From Proteromonas lacertae (lineage: Eukaryota; Sar; Bigyra; Opalinata; Proteromonadidae), in the NCBI GenBank assembly GCA_002245135.1, contig NGBS01001186.1:33154-97153 (forward strand): a stretch of 64,000 nt of DNA, in the 5' to 3' direction. The position numbers and the translations under genes were made by a program. Numbering within the stretch: position 1 is the first letter of the stretch; the number at the start of each line of letters is the position of its first letter. The notes beneath the pieces were generated by a model. That model was not told where the DNA came from, searched no databases, and saw nothing but the letters and a program-made list of their open reading frames with translations. This document shows, piece after piece, positions 1 to 63,777 of the stretch.

Positions 1-607
1 GCCATTCCTAATGGTGAACCAGCATAGGCTATAGAGACTAACATTGTTCTTTCTGTTGGAGGAGACCATCTTGCCATTAATGCTGAAACTGATGGACAGA
101 CAAATGCATTGATTATTCCTGCTAAAGCATTTAATCCAATCCTAATCAACAAAATTATATTGATTAATACAATATTAATGGATATCCTCCTAAAAATGGC
201 ACTGCTAAACATAGTACTGATGCTAACATAACACCAAGACTGAATGAGGGAGTAAATAGTTAAGAAATCAGAAATTTATATCACCAGTTAATATCAAAAA
301 GATATGCTGCTCCATATTTAGTAGCAACTATTCCGCCAATAGTTTGAGGAATTATATAACCCCAAAAATATGAAGAGAGAATGTATCCTTTTGTTGACTC
401 TAGTTTAAAATATAAATTATGTGAATATACCTTGCCAATGAAATTCTTCCATCATTTTAATAGTCGTAACAGAGAATGATGCTCTTAGCATAAATGTCTA
501 TTTTTAATACATATTTATCAACAATACACAAAAATTGCCACAGAATACGCATGTTGCAACTCCATATCTCTTTTTCCCCCTATTTCATTATAAAAAACAC
601 AATACAT
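1..607 (-). CDS. SLC17-like MFS transporter, copy A (5' part only)
   Basis: N-terminal part of a major-facilitator anion transporter resembling the SLC17 family (phosphate, sialic acid, glutamate carriers); the rest lies beyond the window. Joined exons give M-G-K-K-R-Y-G-V-A, then the TM1 end with SVTTIKMMEEFHW, ESTKGYILSSYFWGY, and NAFVCPSVSALMARW. The start ATG is reconstructed as AT (607-606), a 26-nt intron (580-605), then G (579). An in-frame TAG lies just upstream of AT, so no earlier start is visible on this exon. An AT-AC intron interrupts the loop after TM2 (252-305). It is closely related to the two downstream copies. The substrate cannot be read from sequence. Confidence 0.8.
252..305 (-). 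other. U12-type AT-AC intron in transporter copy A
   Basis: 54-nt intron with donor ATATCTTTTT (U12 consensus ATATCCTTT), branch-like TTTCTTAACT and acceptor TTTAC. Removing it joins GC to TCCC in frame, matching the coding sequence of the sister copies. No GT-AG pair does this. Confidence 0.8.
580..605 (-). other. Intron splitting the start codon (AT|G), copy A
   Basis: 26-nt GTAT...TAG intron. Splicing creates the initiator ATG from AT and G. The same arrangement occurs in copies B and C. Confidence 0.7.
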
Positions 608-615
608 TCTTCTAT

Positions 616-631
616 GAAACGACTATATTTT
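616..631. promoter_or_regulatory. AAACGA-TATA type promoter element
   Basis: GAAACGACTATATTTT lies just upstream of the transporter A start. Near-identical elements occur before GT92 (37575), SerRS (41890), IPK/selenoprotein (59082), the MIT gene (47951) and transporter C (6215). Confidence 0.5.
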
Positions 632-686
632 ATGAATGAAACGACTCACATTTCAATAATTATCCCAAAATCAATATTTTGCTGAA

Positions 687-1966
687 ATGAAAGTAATCGA
701 TAATGAAATCAGTAATAGAGGGATTGGAAATGATGAGATAACTTGTGTGAATAATGTGAAATATAGGGGTGGATGTATGGAGATAAATGAGAGTAATGTT
801 AGTGATATATTGAGATTCAGTATATATTACAATGACAATCGAACAATGAAAGTGTATAATAGTGTATTAAAAGAAAAAGAAGATAATAACGAAGATGTTG
901 ATGATTTTTTATCACAATTAAGAACTAAAGTCAATTTTATTGAAGTTAAGAAAGAAGAAATTGAAGAAGAAAATGTTTATGTTTGTTTGTTGATGATGAA
1001 AAGAATATTTCAATAATAGAAGAAATATGTGGAAAAGATATTCTTTTTAGAATATTGAATGAAGATAATTATTTAAATTCCAAATATAAAGAATTATTAA
1101 TAGAATATATAAAAGAGAATAAATTGAGTTTCGAAGAAGAAGAAGAAATGATAAAAATAATGAAAGATAAAGAATTATTGAGTGAATTAAAAACAAAAGA
1201 AATCACATCATTTTCATATCCTCAATCAGAATATTTCTTTTTATTAGATGAAGAAATCTCAATAATTCCATTATGTGATGGAAATCGATGTGAATTTTCA
1301 ATCAATCCTTCATTACCTGATGGAATAATGATAGATCAAGAAAGTGGAATAATTCATGGAAAAGTGAATAAAGAAATCGAAAAGAGAGAATATGAAATAA
1401 TATGTAAGAATATTCTAAATGAAAAGAAATTCAAAATATCATTAGAATTTCAGATTAAATTCACAGAATTAAATAAAAGTGATGGAATATCAATATCAAA
1501 TAATGGAAAATTAATAACAAATACAAATACATGTAATGGTAATAATCATTGTTATTTAAATCTAAAAATGGAAGATGGAGTTTATCATATCAAATATAAA
1601 TTTCATCAAAATAGAAGTTATAATAATGGTATTATGTTAGGATTATCAACTAATAATACATATTCTGGTAATTATATTTATGATCAATCAACAACATGTA
1701 ATTATGTTGCATGGGATGGTGAAAGTGAAGATATTACTAGATATTGTGATATTGGAAGAGTTGTTAATTCAAATCCTAATATCAAAAATCATGGTGATGG
1801 TTCAATTTATGAAGTGATTGTTGATATGAATAAAAGAGAATTTTGGATAAGTCATAATAATTCATCTCCTGTTTTACTTGTTAAAGATTTACCTTCTCCA
1901 TTATATTCATATGCTCTATTATATGGATATAATTCATCAGTCGAATTATTATCAGTTTCACACTAA
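687..1966 (+). CDS. Ig-like/SPRY-like domain protein, frame broken near 981-985
   Basis: Unrecognised protein in two overlapping frames. The first part (687 to about 983) is charged and helical. The second (to 1966) has an Ig-like stretch of the 'putative Ig/cadherin-like' type (SINPSLPDGIMIDQESGIIHG). A C-terminal half resembles an SPRY/B30.2 beta-sandwich (HIKYKFHQN, IMLGLSTNN, VIVDMNKREFWISHNN). The frames meet in a GTTT-repeat (about 976-990) and differ by one base. No GT-AG or AT-AC intron repairs this, so it is either a one-base indel or assembly error, or a decaying gene. A binding or adaptor role is inference from the domains only. It sits convergent to transporter B. Confidence 0.55.
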
Positions 1967-2056
1967 AATTAAAAAAATCATTATTTCTTTATTAATTTAT
2001 TCTTTTTTAATTTCATAAACACATTACCTCAACAAAAGAACAATTATTATTTATAT

Positions 2057-4047
2057 TTATAATCCTCTTTGACTAATACCTTTAGCAAAGCATGAATATA
2101 AAGCTGCACTTAATACTAATATTGCTGTTGCTATTCCAAATACAATATTCCACTATTCAATATAAACGAAATCTATAAATAAAAATACTTGCATTGAGGT
2201 AGGTTTTTCACCAATTATATAAGATGTTAGAATTGGAGATATAATTCCTGGCAATGTTCCAACGGTATTTGATATTCCCATTATTATACCGGAATAATGT
2301 GGGCTAATATCCATCATATTAGCACCAATCATTGTCAAAGTTATTCCTGTTGATCCTACTGCGAATGACATTAAAATAATCATTATTGTAACGTTCTTTG
2401 ACAATGCAGCAGCCATTAATCCAGCACCAGCCAACAGATTTCCAAGCACAACGAAGAATTTTCTTATTGTTACTATCTTAAAACTACCTGATTGTATTAC
2501 ACAATCTGTAATGAAACTACTTACAACTTCAAGAATACTATCTGACATATATGGAAATATTGAAATTATAGAAGTCATTGTGACTGTTAACTTAAACATT
2601 CCATTTATATATGTTGGTAAGTAAGTCATCATAGTATACCATGCCCAATTAACTCCAAACATTAACTGAACTCTATTTAAAAAGAATAACGATAATTAAT
2701 TATTATACAATGATAAAACACCTGCATTTGTAACTAATACTTTCCATGGTATTTTTTGTTTCTTATCTTCCTTTACCATTTCTAATTCTGGAGGAATCAT
2801 TTGAATTGGTCCTAAACTTATTCTTGATACTCTTGCACTTCTTGTGTTATTAAATTCAATTGTTTGAACTGTTTGAATTGCCTTTATTTCTGGTTGGCTT
2901 TTTCTTATTAAACTGGAAGTTTCTTTAACTGCAGCTGGAGATTCAGGTGATAATATTGTTCCTTCTGGAATATTTGCCTCTTCTAGATCTCTGCCTGATC
3001 TTTCTGTGTCTTGATCAGCATCATATCCTTCATTATCACTGCTACTGCTACTTTCCATATCTTCATTTACTTTTATATACTTTTTTCCTTTATTCTTTTT
3101 TGTTTTGACTTGCCTAACAGCAGTTTGTTGAGATCTTTTCATTTCAGAAGCTCTATCCATTCTTGCCATTTCCATTTCAGCTTCCTACAAAGTAATCACC
3201 AATAAAAATATATAAATACTCTTGTAGCTTCTTCTATTGATGTAATAATCATTCTTTTTTCCTCTTCAGATATATGTTTATCTTCAGCTGGAGAAGAAGA
3301 TACATATCTAGAATTTATATCAAATATAAACTATACAAATAAAACCATATATACCACACTAAATGAAGCGCAAATATTACATAATACACACCTCTCCATC
3401 CCCAAGCTCTATCACAGATAAAACCACATATTGGCTGTCCAAGCGAAAGACCTAATGGGGAACCAGCATAGGCAATAGCTGTGAGTAATGTCCTTTCATT
3501 CACTGGAGCCCATTTAGCCATTAGAGCAGAAACAGATGGACAAACAAATGCATTGATTACCCCTGAAATGGCATTTAATATTATTCTATTCATACATTAC
3601 TACTCAATTATACAGCATAGTTGGATATGATCCAAAGAATGGGACCAACAGACATAACACAGAAGCTAAAAATACACCCAATCCAAATGATGGAGTTGTT
3701 TATTAAGATAATTCCTTGAAATTAATGAAATATTTATCAAAAAGATATGCTGCACCATACTGAGTAGCTACTATACCTCCAATTGTCTGTGGAATAATGT
3801 ATCCCCAAAAATATGAAGATAGAATATAACCTTTTGTTGATTCTAAAGAATTATAGAGATAAAAAATATAAATACCCTGCCAATGAAATTCTTCCATCAT
3901 CTTAATTGTAGTTACAGAAAATGATCCTCTTAGAACAAAAGTCTACATTTTAAATCTCTTAACAATACACAAAAATTACCACCAAAGACACACAGTGCAA
4001 CTCCAAACCTCTTCTTACCCCTAATTCAGTAAATAGTAACCATACAT
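2057..4047 (-). CDS. SLC17-like MFS transporter, copy B
   Basis: Complete multi-exon transporter of the SLC17-like MFS type, probably carrying organic or inorganic anions across a membrane. The start codon is split (AT at 4047-4046, intron 4021-4045, G at 4020). A TGA stop directly precedes the AT, so the split codon is needed. Seen: TFVLRGSFSVTTIKMM, NAFVCPSVSALMAKWAP, GQPICGFICDRAWGWRG, then an unusual charged central loop of about 150 residues rich in E/D/S/K. Later helices contain NWAWYTMMTYLPTYING and SPHYSGIIMGISNTVGTLPG, with C-terminal YSCFAKGISQRGL. Introns are GTAT-TAG except one AT-AC intron (3695-3748). The substrate is unknown; the fold assignment is firm. Confidence 0.85.
3695..3748 (-). 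other. U12-type AT-AC intron in transporter copy B
   Basis: 54 nt, donor ATATCTTTTT, branch-like ATCTTAAT, acceptor ending ACAAC. It joins GC to TCC in frame at the same codon as copy A. There is no GT between the donor and the next coding stretch, so a GT-AG intron is excluded. Confidence 0.8.
4021..4045 (-). other. Intron splitting the start codon (AT|G), copy B
   Basis: 25-nt GTAT...TAG intron between AT and G of the initiator. The TGA immediately before AT closes the frame upstream. Confidence 0.75.
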
Positions 4048-4154
4048 TCAAAGTAAGAATGAAAAATGTAAAAGCTTGAAACGATATTTGTATATTAATT
4101 TTGACATAAAAAACACAGTTACACAAATAATTTAAAATTTAAAATAAAATTAAC

Positions 4155-6191
4155 TTACATTCCAGGTTGAATTACTCCTCTTGCAAAGCATGAATATATT
4201 AAGGCACCAGATACCAAAATAGATGATGTTATTATAAATACAATTCTCCACTATAACGTATAATGCAAGATAAATATACTAAAAGAAGTGTTGGATGTTC
4301 TCCAATAATATAAGATGTTAAAACTGGACAAATAATACCTGGAATTGTTGCAATTGTGTTAGAAATACCCATAATAATTCCAGCATAATGTGGACTAACA
4401 TCCATCATATTTGCACTTTGCCTATTCGAATAATAACAATTAATAAAATACATAGATCCTGTAATTGCAGTTAATCCAACAGTTAAAGTCATAAAAGTCA
4501 CCATAGGTATTAAATCAGTAGAATAAGCAGCTAACAATAAAGCAATAGAAGCAGAAATATTACCAATTAATACAAATGCTTTTCTTATAGTAACAATTCT
4601 AATAAACATAGAAAAAAATGAAGTAAAAAAGAATATATATATATACTTAAATCTTCCTGATTTAATAAAACAATCTGTTATTGAACTAACTCCAATTCCA
4701 ATTACAGTATTAGTGAGATATGGAAATAAAGCGATTAGTGATGATGTTGATACTGGTAACTTATACATGCCGTTAATAAATGTTGGTAAATATGTCATCA
4801 TTGTATACCATGCCCAATTGCTAGTGAAATGAAGTTCAAAACTATAATAAGAAATATATATATCACAAAAATACATTGTTAAAACTCCAATATTAGTCAT
4901 AATAGTCTTCCAAGGTATATTTTGTTGTTTCTTTTGTACATGTATATCTAACTGAGGTGGTAATTGCTGAATTGGTCCAAGATTCATTCTTGATATTCTT
5001 GCTTCTCTAGAGTTATTAAACTCAATCTTATCTAAAGGTTGTATTTTATTATTGTTTAGTAATTGGATTGATTCTTCTTCTATTGAGATATCTGGATCAG
5101 GTGATTCATGATATTTAAATGATTTTTTCCCTACACTACTGCTACTTCTGTTACTTTTATTATTATTATTATTATTATTAATCTCATTTTCATCATCACC
5201 TTCATATTCTTCTTCTTCATCAACAGCAATCTGAGTGTATTTCTTACCTTTTCTTTTGATAATTTTCTTCTTTTTATCTTTATTCATCTTTCCACTTTCT
5301 AAATTTTGACTTTCATCAATACTACTCATTTCAATTTCCACATTCTAATATTAATAATATAAATATTAATAAATATATACTTCAGCAGATGCAATTGAAT
5401 TAATAATCATATTCTTTTCTTCAATCGATATATAAGGATCTTGTTCAGGTGAAGAATATACAAAGAAATAAAACCAAATATACCATACAACATGAAGTAC
5501 AAATATAACATAATAAACACCTCTCCATCCTAAATCACTATCAGTTATATAACCTGATAAAGGTTGACCTAATGCCATTCCTAAAGCATTTCCTGAGAAA
5601 CTGATTGAAGCTAATAATGTTCTTTCTGCTGGTGGTGCCCATCTACTGACTAGTGCAGATACTGCTGGCGTTACAAATGCATTGACTATTCCAGATAATG
5701 CGTTTAATAAACTTCTATTTGATTTATTAGTGTATTGGTTTATACAGAATCAATGGATGATTATTAACAATTGGAATTCCTACACAGAATACATCAGTCA
5801 GTAGAATGCCCATTCCAAATACTGGTTTGAAAGAATATTAAGAAGCTTTTATAAATATGAGAATGATATGAGAAAAAGATATGCTGCTCCATATTTTGTA
5901 GCTACAACACCTGCTATGATCTGTGGAAATATATATCCCCAAAAATATGACGATAAAAAGTAACCTTTTGTTGATTCTGTTAATAATATAATTATCAAAT
6001 AAATTACCTTCCCAATGGAATTCTTCAGTCATTTTAATAACAGTGACAGATATAGAAGATCTTAATACCATTGTCTATTAAAATGATTGATAATATATGC
6101 GAAAAATACAACAAAATTCCCCATAAATATACATATTGCAACCCAATATCTTTTACTTTTCCTAGATTAAATAAAGCATTCCTCTATACAT
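4155..6191 (-). CDS. SLC17-like MFS transporter, copy C
   Basis: Third tandem copy, same fold and topology as B. After intron removal: M-K-S-K-R-Y-W-V-A, SVTVIKMTEEFHWE, NAFVTPAVSALVSRWAP, GWRGVYYVIFVLHVVWYIWF. A charged middle loop includes an Asn run and KKKKIIKRKGKKY. Then NWAWYTMMTYLPTFING, SPHYAGIIMGISNTIATIPG and C-terminal YSCFARGVIQPGM. It has extra GT-AG introns absent from B (for example inside SGRFK|IVTIRK). The split start (AT 6191-6190, intron 6162-6189, G 6161) is conserved, although here an in-frame ATG also exists upstream near 6268. Its AT-AC intron has a less clean acceptor. Confidence 0.82.
5825..5882 (-). other. U12-like AT-AC intron in transporter copy C (acceptor uncertain)
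   Basis: Donor ATATCTTTTT and branch-like TTCTTAAT are kept at the same codon as in copies A and B. The visible AC acceptor (...CAAAC) leaves the frame off by one. Ending two bases earlier (AA) restores the frame. It may be an AT-AA variant or a small mutation. Confidence 0.6.
6162..6189 (-). other. Intron splitting the start codon (AT|G), copy C
   Basis: 28-nt GTAT...TAG intron at the same place as in copies A and B. Confidence 0.6.
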
Positions 6192-6340: not shown

Positions 6341-8338
6341 TTAATTATCTTTCTTCTCTTCGTTTGGTGGTTTTTGCACTACTGCAGGTGTAGCTGGAGT
6401 AGCTGGTGTTTGTGGAGTTCCAGGAGTAACCATAGGTGTTGAAACACCTAATTGTTTGTTTTGAGCTCTCAATAATGCTCTTTTCGCAGCTAACTTCATT
6501 CTAATCACACTTTGAACTAAAACAGCAGCATCATTCATAGTTTCATTAGGCAAACCAATTGGTAAGTATAATTCCACAAATCTTTCTCTCACTAAGAAGG
6601 ATAGAATAGTATAAGTTCTAGAAAGAACCAAATCAACAGGCAAATATTGCTGTAAATCGCCATTCATTACAAATACTTGAGCACACATGATATGTTGGAA
6701 TGACAAATTATTCTTTATTGATTTCATAAACTTTAAGATATAATCACTGTTTAATTCTGTTGAATCGATCTTTAATATTGCTTGTAGTTTAATTTCACTA
6801 AAGTCATCTTCATGTATTAATATATCAGGTTCAGTTGACCAGTGGTTGTAATATAAGAACCTTGAAGGATAATACGTTGATGTATTCCATTCATCTATTT
6901 AAATAATAATAATAATAATAAAATATATACTAATTATTGGACTAGCATCATTCAAGAAATCTTGTACTTCAATAGTATCTGGATGATTCTTAAATGTTGA
7001 TAATAATCTAATAGTATCATAGGATGATAAGAATAATTGTGGAGAATTTGTTAATATCTTGAAACATTCAGATAATGTTAATTCTTTAGCACCTGGGTAT
7101 TTCTCTATTAACAATTTAAATAATAAATAAATGATAAATACTGTTAATAGTCTCAGATAAATATCTTCTAATTTGGTTGGATGATATGTAGAATGGATTT
7201 TTGAGTAAATAAATATGAGCTTCACTATATAAAGATGGGAATTGAGTAAAAAAAAATTAAAGAAATTTCTAAGGTATAATTTATAAAAAAGGAAAAAAAG
7301 ATATTCATATGTAATAGATCCATCTGCATTCTCTCTTACTAAAATCATTAATAAATTAATTTCCATTTGAGTTAAACACAAGGAAGGATGATATAAACAC
7401 TTTTGGAATACAGCTCTTGGAATAGATAATGTATGTGAAGAATCAGCCTATTTAGAAAAAAAATATTAATAATATGATATAAATACATTTTTAAACACTT
7501 CTGCAGCTTGACTAAACAACAAATCAAATCTAATATCAAATGTTTTCTCAATAACTGTACATTGTTCTGATGATAAATTACCTCCAAAGCCAATTGCTCC
7601 TCTGTCTTTCAATACACGAACTAATGGTGTTACTTCAGTTACAAAGTCACGATAATTCACATTACCTTCATTATTCTCATATGATACAACCAATAAATTC
7701 TATTTTGAAAAAAATAAAAATTATATATAAAATATATATACAGTCATTTCATCATCAGTTAAATCTAAAGAAGCAGATAAAAATAATGCTTTGAATGAAT
7801 TATATGTAAGGAATTTAGTATCATTAGCGTCTTCTGTTCTGAATAATGCCAATAAGTATTCTTCAATTGCAAGAGATTGTTCTGCAGATTCAAAGGCAGC
7901 ATCTGGTTTTTCTGGAGCACGAGTTTTAGTAAAGTTATCGTGTAATGTAACAATATCATTGACATATGATTTTTCTTTTACTATTCTGTCTAACCATTTT
8001 GAACTTATTAATTCATCACCTGATCTTTTTAAAGTATATTCCTCAACTATATATTAAAATTAAATGATTAATTGAAATACTTTTGTAAGATAAAGCGCTC
8101 ATTTTCTCATCGTCATAAGGTACTTCAAAATGAAGATCAGCTGTAGCAATAGGTATTGGATTAAGTTGGGTTGGTAAACTGAAATTAACATCTATAATAC
8201 ATGAATTATCTTTTATTTCCTACAAAATATTGAAATGATTCTTACTCTAACATCACAATAGTATCTATATCCTGTGGCTGATTTTTCTATAAACTCTTTC
8301 ACTCTATCTATTGACTCATATACTCTTTGATCATCCAT
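6341..8338 (-). CDS. EF-hand-like / IQ-motif protein
   Basis: I do not recognise a named family. About 550 residues in eight or so exons, starting M-D-D-Q-R-V-Y-E-S. The middle has tandem EF-hand-like helices (FLTYNSFKALFLSASLDLTDDEMT; NEGNVNYRDFV; ADSSHTLSIPRAVF; NADGSITYD), with calcium loops only partly conserved. Near the C-terminus an IQ-like segment (AAVLVQSVIRMKLAAKRAL) suggests calmodulin binding. The tail is a Pro/Thr-rich repeat (TPGTPQTPATPATPA) ending in charged residues. Such architecture is common in cytoskeletal or flagellar calcium-responsive proteins; that role is inference. One intron (7246-7304) is AT-AC. Confidence 0.7.
7246..7304 (-). other. U12-type AT-AC intron in the EF-hand gene
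   Basis: 59 nt, donor ATATCTTTTTTT, branch-like TTTCTTTAAT, acceptor TTTTTAC. Removing it joins ACATATGA to TCAATTCCC, giving an uninterrupted frame (ITYD-QFPSLYSEAHIY). The raw sequence is out of frame otherwise. Confidence 0.78.
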
Positions 8339-12134: not shown

Positions 12135-13405
12135 ATGAATATTTCTCAATTCTTATTCTCTTGTGTGAAATACCCTTTCTATATATTCCAACTTAATTTA
12201 TATTTAATATTCAATATCAATCTTGAGATATGGTATTTTTTGCTTGGTAAACTAAAATTGTTGATATCAGCAAAGAAGGTAGAATGCGAAGCAAAAGAAA
12301 AAGAATTACCGTTAACAGAGACGAATGGACATTTTGCAAATCTTCCAAGTGGAAAATGTTTTTACATTGAAGATGGTGATGAATCCAATCCAGTTGTTAT
12401 ACTAATTCATGGATTTACTAATATTTCTTCAGTATACGAACCAATAATACCTTATATTGTATGTAATGTAATATTTAGTTGAAATTAGGTTGATGCAGGA
12501 TATCATGTATATTCAATAGATTTATATGGATTTGGACAATCTCCACAACCATTTGAATCTAAAGATTTCACTATCAGTTATTATGTTAACCAGGTACATG
12601 AATTTATAGAGAATCTTGAATTAGGTGAAGAACAGGTGATATTAGTTGGTCATTCGATGGGTGGTTATATTGCATCAATGTATACAATACAATATCCAAG
12701 AAATATATCATCTTTGAAACTATTGGCACCAGCGAAGAGTGGAAATTATGATAGTCCATCACTTTATTTAAGCATTTATGTATTAGTATAAATTTGGATT
12801 TTTTTATTGTTTTATTTATATTGTAAATAGATGCTTGAGTTTTTATCAAGAATACCATTACTTGGTAGTATGTTTTTTTATACTTCCAATATATTATCAG
12901 CTATGTTTTTAAGATTTGCATTAAAAAACAATGATTGGAATCCTAGAGAAATAAAACAAGTAGTTGATAATGATATTGTTAAAGATGATACAAGAATTAC
13001 AGTGTTTTTATTATATTGCAGAATGGCATTAGTTTCATTTTATGATTGTATGTACACTGTAAAATATAACAAACATCTTATTTCATTGTTATATTATATT
13101 ATTCATGATTTAAGGTTTATGGAATTTGATGATGATTTATATAGAAATGTTAATGAAATAACTAAACAATATATATCATTTTTTTTAAATATTTAAATAT
13201 TCTATAAGTTATTTCTTAATTTTATTTTTACGCTATTCCTGTGCAATTGATCTGGGGAGAATATGATGAATGTGTTCCTGTATATTATATCAAGAAATAT
13301 TTACAACCAGTTTTGCCAAATGCAAAAGTGAATGTTTTAAAGGATAGTGATCATTTTATGTTTGTTAATTATCCAGAGCTGGTTAGAGATATGCTATTCT
13401 GTTAA
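12135..13405 (+). CDS. Alpha/beta-hydrolase fold protein, membrane-anchored
   Basis: Serine hydrolase of the alpha/beta fold, lipase/esterase-like; the natural substrate is unknown. A hydrophobic N-terminal stretch could be a signal anchor (it may also hide an unrecognised in-frame intron). Seen: oxyanion-loop strand VVILIHGFTN, YSIDLYGFGQS, nucleophile elbow VGHSMGGYIA, acid strand VQLIWGEYDECVP, catalytic His in KDSDHFMFVNYPEL. All triad residues are present. The acid-strand exon is reached only by removing an AT-AC intron (13173-13231). It follows the thiamin pyrophosphokinase gene by 67 bases on the same strand. Confidence 0.88.
13173..13231 (+). other. U12-type AT-AC intron in the hydrolase gene
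   Basis: 59 nt, donor ATATCATTTT, branch-like TTTCTTAAT, acceptor TTTTTAC. It joins CAATAT to GCTATTCCT in phase 0, giving TKQY-AIPVQLIWGE, the expected hydrolase acid strand. There is no usable GT donor nearby. Confidence 0.82.
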
Positions 13406-63670: not shown

Positions 63671-63777
63671 GATTCTGTGGCGCAATGGATAACGCATCGG
63701 TCTTAAAATTATTTACCTTTGGTTAATAGTACAACTTTCTAAACCGAAGATTAGAGGTTCGAATCCTCTCAGAATCA
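63671..63777 (+). tRNA. tRNA with Arg(UCU)-type body and 34-nt intron
   Basis: Acceptor GATTCTG pairs with CAGAATC (63770-63776), discriminator A. D-arm GGCGCAATGGATAACGC, typical of Arg tRNAs. Anticodon stem TCGGT/ACCGA, short variable loop AGATT, T-arm AGAGG-TTCGAAT-CCTCT. A T-run follows as Pol III terminator. Removing 63704-63737 (or one base later) yields loop CTTCTAA, anticodon UCU. Removing 63708-63741 at the canonical 37/38 site yields UAA on a body lacking the long Leu variable arm. Confidence 0.85.

Follow-up and report, generated by a model that had tools for sequence, protein, structure and literature searches.

Three tandem transporter genes of the SLC17 type (copies A, B and C), all on the minus strand of a 64,000-nucleotide (nt) genomic stretch (the window, meaning the whole stretch of DNA that was analysed), are each interrupted by a short segment that, judged from sequence, is very probably a U12-type AT-AC intron (a predicted AT-AA intron in copy C), likely to be removed by the minor spliceosome. 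The consensus of the U12-type 5' splice site is ATATCCTTT or GTATCCTTT, and a branch site resembling TTCCTTAAC lies near the 3' end. In most of the transporter loci, the donor sequence, a branch-like site and restoration of the reading frame by AT-AC or AT-AA removal were all found. As the preliminary description of the window had proposed, the segments interrupt the three genes at one and the same codon (phase 2 by the present analysis), and each shows an AT donor and a CTTAAY-like site. The coordinates are collected in Table 1.

When 305-252 was removed from copy A, the frame read KYGAA/PSFSLGVMLAS (GAAPSFSLGV; the slash marks the junction), and removal of 3748-3695 from copy B gave QYGAA/PSFGLGVFLAS (GAAPSFGLGV). 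The AC acceptor restored the frame in both copies with 54 nt each, just as first described. Branch-like sites were CTTAAC/CTTAAT in the copy A/B segments and of the CTTAAY type in all three copies. If the segments were retained, two in-frame stops would be read in each of A and B and one in C. Contig C583, which was taken as the other allele, was concordant with the window for all three copies. Removal of an AT-AC segment (AT-AA in C) is the one reading common to the three genes.

The copy C segment (ATATCTTTTTC...CTTCTTAATATTCTTTCAA) has a donor beginning with ATATCTTTTT, as in A and B. Because the frame requires an end at 5827, an AT-AA intron is predicted for this copy; after removal of 5882-5827, the joined reading was KYGAA/PVFGMGILL (GAAPVFGMGILL). 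The AC end (5882-5825) lies two bases downstream of the AA end and is off frame. The earlier suggestion that copy C may use AT-AA is supported by the frame, with the end at 5827 rather than at 5825. Among AC, AG and AA ends, AA was the sole one that kept the frame, in both C113 and the near-identical C583. The nearby AC could also be explained if copy C did not use AT-AA and were instead a decaying gene whose AC has gone out of frame. This was considered unlikely, since both contigs have an open frame beyond the junction, the joined N-terminal half matched MFS_1 with 98.1 bits, and no other non-canonical minor terminus is as common as AT-AA in animals and plants (PMC10639083).

Copy A was modelled over the window and an adjoining 10 kb of contig sequence as a protein of 585 residues with seven introns, of which the six ordinary ones run GTAT...TAG, 28-44 nt, or have an AG end preceded by CTA, ATA or TTA. 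The joined protein matched MFS_1 with 181 bits. Among Protein Data Bank sequences, it matched sialin (8dwi) with an E value of 5e-59, the alignment being gap-free through the intron position, and VGLUT2 with an E value of 1e-45. Copy A is homologous to these SLC17 transporters over both transporter halves, whereas a long charged loop separates the halves here. A protein search with copy A returned three matches, probably because the search words fell within the charged loop.

Used as a query against the genome, the junction region matched 21 places, which by our own grouping of alleles, near-copies and split matches correspond to 11 distinct loci, namely, A, B, C and eight elsewhere. Ten of the 11 loci have the donor ATATC[T/C/A]TTTT at this shared phase-2 codon (seven of the eight elsewhere). 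An AC end kept the frame in eight loci (A, B, L012, L017, L018, L022, L023 and L024) and an AA end in one (C); outside the window, an in-frame AT-AC segment was therefore present at the shared codon in six of the eight paralogous loci. In seven of the ten loci with this donor, CTTAAY or CTTTAAY precedes the end by 7-10 nt. As the same codon is interrupted in most of the loci found, the intron probably predates the duplications of the family. At L014 (C1146), the shared codon carries a 32-nt GTATAT...AAAG intron, which is GT-AG and of major-type appearance. A rough tree built from translated fragments placed L014 between AT-AC groups (support 0.918, with a long outgroup), a position that favours a change from AT-AC to GT-AG; accordingly, L014 probably records a switch from the minor to the major spliceosome. 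The transporter family, in which a single codon hosts AT-AC, GT-AG and probable AT-AA introns, would be a compact case of minor-intron type change. L019 (C983), a near-copy of L017, has an in-frame TAG upstream of its AT-AC intron.

Two further AT-AC introns were found in the window by relaxing donor position +6 and the branch site. Joining the EF-hand-like gene across the first gave ENADGSITY/DQFPSLY, and EF-hand_7 matched across the junction with 25.0 bits, which is below the curated cut-off of 30. With 7304-7246 retained, the frame shifted and a stop followed after the next intron, as read by eye. A joined model of this gene with one extra intron ended early and was dropped. In the alpha/beta hydrolase gene, the Abhydrolase_1 match rose from 85.9 bits, when the retained frame was read to its stop, to 105.1 bits when joined; removal of 13173-13231 adds the C-terminal region of the hydrolase.

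For the rest of the genome, the 50.2 Mb assembly was searched with a strict AT-AC pattern, ATATCYTTTN{20,50}TTCTTAAYN{5,12}AC, by which the branch site and its spacing are fixed. It gave 70 matches (four of them extra ends of a donor already listed) versus 26 for the reversed pattern; this excess and the donor shared by seven of the eight loci elsewhere are more than chance would give. Because A and C are the only ones among the five window introns that the pattern recovers, the true number of AT-AC introns is probably higher than this count. The listed places were fetched with the exception of eight, apparently near-copies of others in the fetched set. In 28 of 51 non-redundant candidates, a frame-breaking segment was flanked on either side by an open frame of 30 codons or more, compared with 16 of 190 random AT...AC segments from the same loci. 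When 10 of 24 joined frames were scanned with Pfam, seven had a match at E 0.001; an NF-YB domain (90.1 bits) lay across one AT-AC junction and scored above its cut-off, TFIIE_beta and Lactamase_B_2 lay across junctions and scored below theirs, and the other matches were off the junction. The GT-AG counterpart pattern gave 17 matches versus 6 for its reversed form, and by our own reading of the list, 15 of the 17 were one repeat; once this repeat was set aside, no genome-wide excess over the reversed pattern was observed. Going by one strict sequence pattern, the minor introns appear to be almost wholly AT-AC. The repeat itself is conserved on 15 contigs (e.g. C133:184587) and carries GTATCCTTT...TTCTTAAT, and 15 of its copies match the GT-AG pattern.

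Minor small nuclear RNA (snRNA) genes, the complete absence of which was to count against the preliminary description, are present in the assembly. Matches to genes for U12 (56.9 bits), U6atac (81.5 bits) and U11 (three copies of 63.4, 63.4 and 61.7 bits) were above the Rfam gathering scores. The 5' end of U11 is AAAAAGGGC, and the U12 element GUAAGGAA is intact. CENATAC (PF14968) was matched by two stretches approximately 1 kb apart on one contig, with 40.5 and 30.9 bits (cut-off 25.3); in human cells, CENATAC promotes the splicing of AT-AN minor introns (PMC8280824). Together, the snRNA genes, the CENATAC matches and the common reading by AT-AC removal support the presence of a minor spliceosome, as was originally suggested. 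Mechanistically, base pairing would be expected between the U11 5' end AAAAAGGGC and the 5' splice site ATATCTTTTT, and between the GUAAGGAA element of U12 and the branch site (TTCTTAAY-like). Next, U11 would give way to U6atac, and a preference for these AT-AN introns would come from the CENATAC homologue, in line with the role of CENATAC in human cells.

Several observations weigh against U12-type removal of these segments. Among the components, U4atac was not found in the assembly by the Rfam model, in a search without a positive control, and so the proposed set of snRNAs was recovered except for this member. An exact pattern complementary to the U6atac of this genome gave no U4atac match genome-wide, and a relaxed complement pattern gave two matches versus 31 reversed, neither convincing by eye. 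The U4-model search recovered ordinary U4 at 105.6 bits and two weak matches unlike U4atac by eye. For the 48K protein, the CHHC zinc finger model PF05253 gave 17 matches, eight above the cut-off, some of the frames being near-identical copies; the best candidate (C371:45726-45800, the sequence of which is shared by C719) was TRM13 and was rejected. Furthermore, the stretch of U6atac expected to base-pair with the 5' splice site reads AGCCGA versus AAAGGA in the Rfam consensus, and an above-cut-off Pfam match crossed the junction in just one of the ten joined proteins scanned. At the level of single loci, more than one AC or AA end keeps the frame in some cases: an AC three bases earlier likewise keeps it in copy B, and a second in-frame AC is present in B, L012, L022 and L024. 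L017 and L018 have AT-AC at the shared codon without CTTAAY near the end. L013 (C18) has no CTTAAY anywhere, no stop if the segment is retained and no in-frame AC; AG and AA ends at 24-39 nt keep its frame, and the segment is perhaps kept as coding sequence.

The open frame of L013 would also suit a reading in which the copies are spliced at local GT-AG sites or the segments are insertions that are translated. GT-AG sites were enumerated at nine transporter junctions (all except L013 and L014) and at the EF-hand and hydrolase junctions, with donors taken from 40 nt upstream and acceptors to 42 nt downstream. Frame-keeping GT-AG pairs with a small change in length were found in copy A (adding three residues), L012 (removing one) and L018 (adding four to nine), which likewise count against the AT-AC reading. 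The pair in copy A (284-240, 45 nt, GTGATA...ATTCAG) is absent from B and C. The earlier claim that no GT donor was possible is therefore too strong for copy A; no GT-AG alternative was common to the loci examined. Within the enumerated range, none was shared by the family; those in B, C, L017 and L024 would each remove at least 11 residues and those in L022 at least six, and L023, the EF-hand gene and the hydrolase gene had none at all. Moreover, A, B and C meet stops if the segments are retained. GT-AG readings were thus rejected as a general explanation, and local GT-AG use or translated insertion is most improbable.

Removal of the AT-AC segments by the major (U2) spliceosome was weighed in the same way. 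Major-type AT-AC introns occur in human genes (PMC8280824), major-type introns are frequent in the present transporter genes, and the lack of CTTAAY near the ends of L017 and L018 would agree with a U2 reading. Nevertheless, the donors read ATATC[T/C/A]TTTT, most of the loci with that donor have CTTAAY or CTTTAAY at a distance of 7-10 nt from the end, the ordinary introns modelled in A and B are instead GTAT...TAG of 26-44 nt, and minor snRNA genes are present. Major-spliceosome removal was accordingly judged highly unlikely, and U12-type introns remain the preferred reading.

The sole U6atac found was at L002 1501-1615, 46 of 1832 first-look candidates having been scored. It reads AUGAGCCGAGAGAAGG, compared with AUGAAAGGAGAGAAGG in the Rfam consensus. 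At the 5' splice site, positions +4 to +9 are the pairing partners of the AAAGGA segment of U6atac; in the present U6atac, C and C would face +6 and +7. Of the ten transporter loci, six have T at +6, three have A and one has C; the EF-hand intron has T and the hydrolase intron has A. In 33 frame-supported pattern matches, +6 was T in 26 and C in 7, where the pattern allowed C or T only. This variation is consistent with relaxed U6atac pairing, and base composition (25-33% G+C along the window) could be an alternative cause of T and A at +6. This U6atac and the consensus could not be told apart by RNA duplex energies, since each has a second register. A possibility that we entertain without favouring it is a minor spliceosome restricted to AT-AC introns, in which U6atac lacks the standard 5'-site pairing, +6 is free to be T, C or A, and the 5' end is recognised by another U6atac register, by U11 or by CENATAC.

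To place the genome, a seryl-tRNA synthetase tree was built from the window protein and 27 of the 120 listed matches. The window protein and a 95%-identical database protein grouped with Blastocystis, apart from oomycetes and others (support 92); on this one gene tree, the source is likely a relative within or near Opalinata. Pelomyxa, which had also been considered, was set aside because of this placement by seryl-tRNA synthetase, and a VPS4-like search was uninformative on lineage. Blastocystis ST1 is reported to have 346 U12-type introns, typically AT-AC, with four snRNAs and seven proteins (PMC5608401), and a later survey gave 77% AT-AC among 253 Blastocystis minor introns (PMC10639083). 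Blastocystis ST1 and the present genome share AT-AC minor introns, U11, U12 and U6atac, and are related by the one gene tree. They differ in that Blastocystis ST1 has all four snRNAs, while U4atac was not found here, and in that AT-AC introns make up 77% in Blastocystis, while the GT-AG counterpart pattern has no excess here after one repeat is set aside. In humans, about a quarter of minor introns are AT-AC (PMC10639083 and PMC8280824), in contrast to the almost complete AT-AC set apparent here; AT-AN introns and CENATAC (a homologue here) occur in both. In the literature, which was partially covered, no report of U12-type introns in Opalinata beyond Blastocystis was recognised. The introns are likely a further example of the AT-AC-rich minor splicing published for Blastocystis. 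This would extend such splicing to a probable relative, and the feature may therefore date far back in this branch. Two points deserve further attention, namely, the changed U6atac sequence and the near-absence of minor introns of the GT-AG type. If both the AT-AC-only repertoire and the altered U6atac are true, they would provide a natural test of the contacts by which AT-AN introns are selected; human CENATAC disease raises this question.

Table 1. Transporter genes and predicted introns in the window
Feature	Position	Strand	Length and phase	Remarks
Transporter copy A (SLC17-type MFS), 5' part as modelled	1..579	-		Extends ~1.4 kb past the window start
Predicted AT-AC minor (U12-type) intron, copy A	252..305	-	54 nt, phase 2	ATATCTTTTT...TTTCTTAACTATTTAC
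Transporter copy B as modelled	2057..4020	-		MFS_1 98.6 bits (joined N-terminal half)
Proposed GTAT...TAG introns, copy B	3968-3943, 3875-3843, 3613-3586, 3219-3185, 2708-2673, 2188-2153	-		
Proposed intron, copy B	3331-3308	-	24 nt	Read by eye
Predicted AT-AC minor intron, copy B	3695..3748	-	54 nt, phase 2	ATATCTTTTT...TTATCTTAATAAACAAC
Transporter copy C, ends approximate	4155..6165	-		MFS_1 98.1 bits (joined N-terminal half, across the junction)
Predicted AT-AA minor intron, copy C	5827..5882	-	56 nt, phase 2	Only AC/AG/AA end in frame
Predicted AT-AC intron, EF-hand-like gene (~8338-6341, -)	7246..7304	-	59 nt, phase 2	ATATCTTTTTTTCC...TTTCTTTAATTTTTTTTTAC
Predicted AT-AC intron, alpha/beta hydrolase gene	13173..13231	+	59 nt, phase 0	ATATCATTTTTTTT...TTTCTTAATTTTATTTTTAC

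In the case of copy B, the joined frame was open for 187 residues, after which the 24-nt intron was needed; the check as one frame covers the introns upstream of it. Elsewhere in the window, a transfer RNA (tRNA) match was found at 63671-63777 (+). It spans 107 nt versus a 71-position model, and the gene probably contains an intron.

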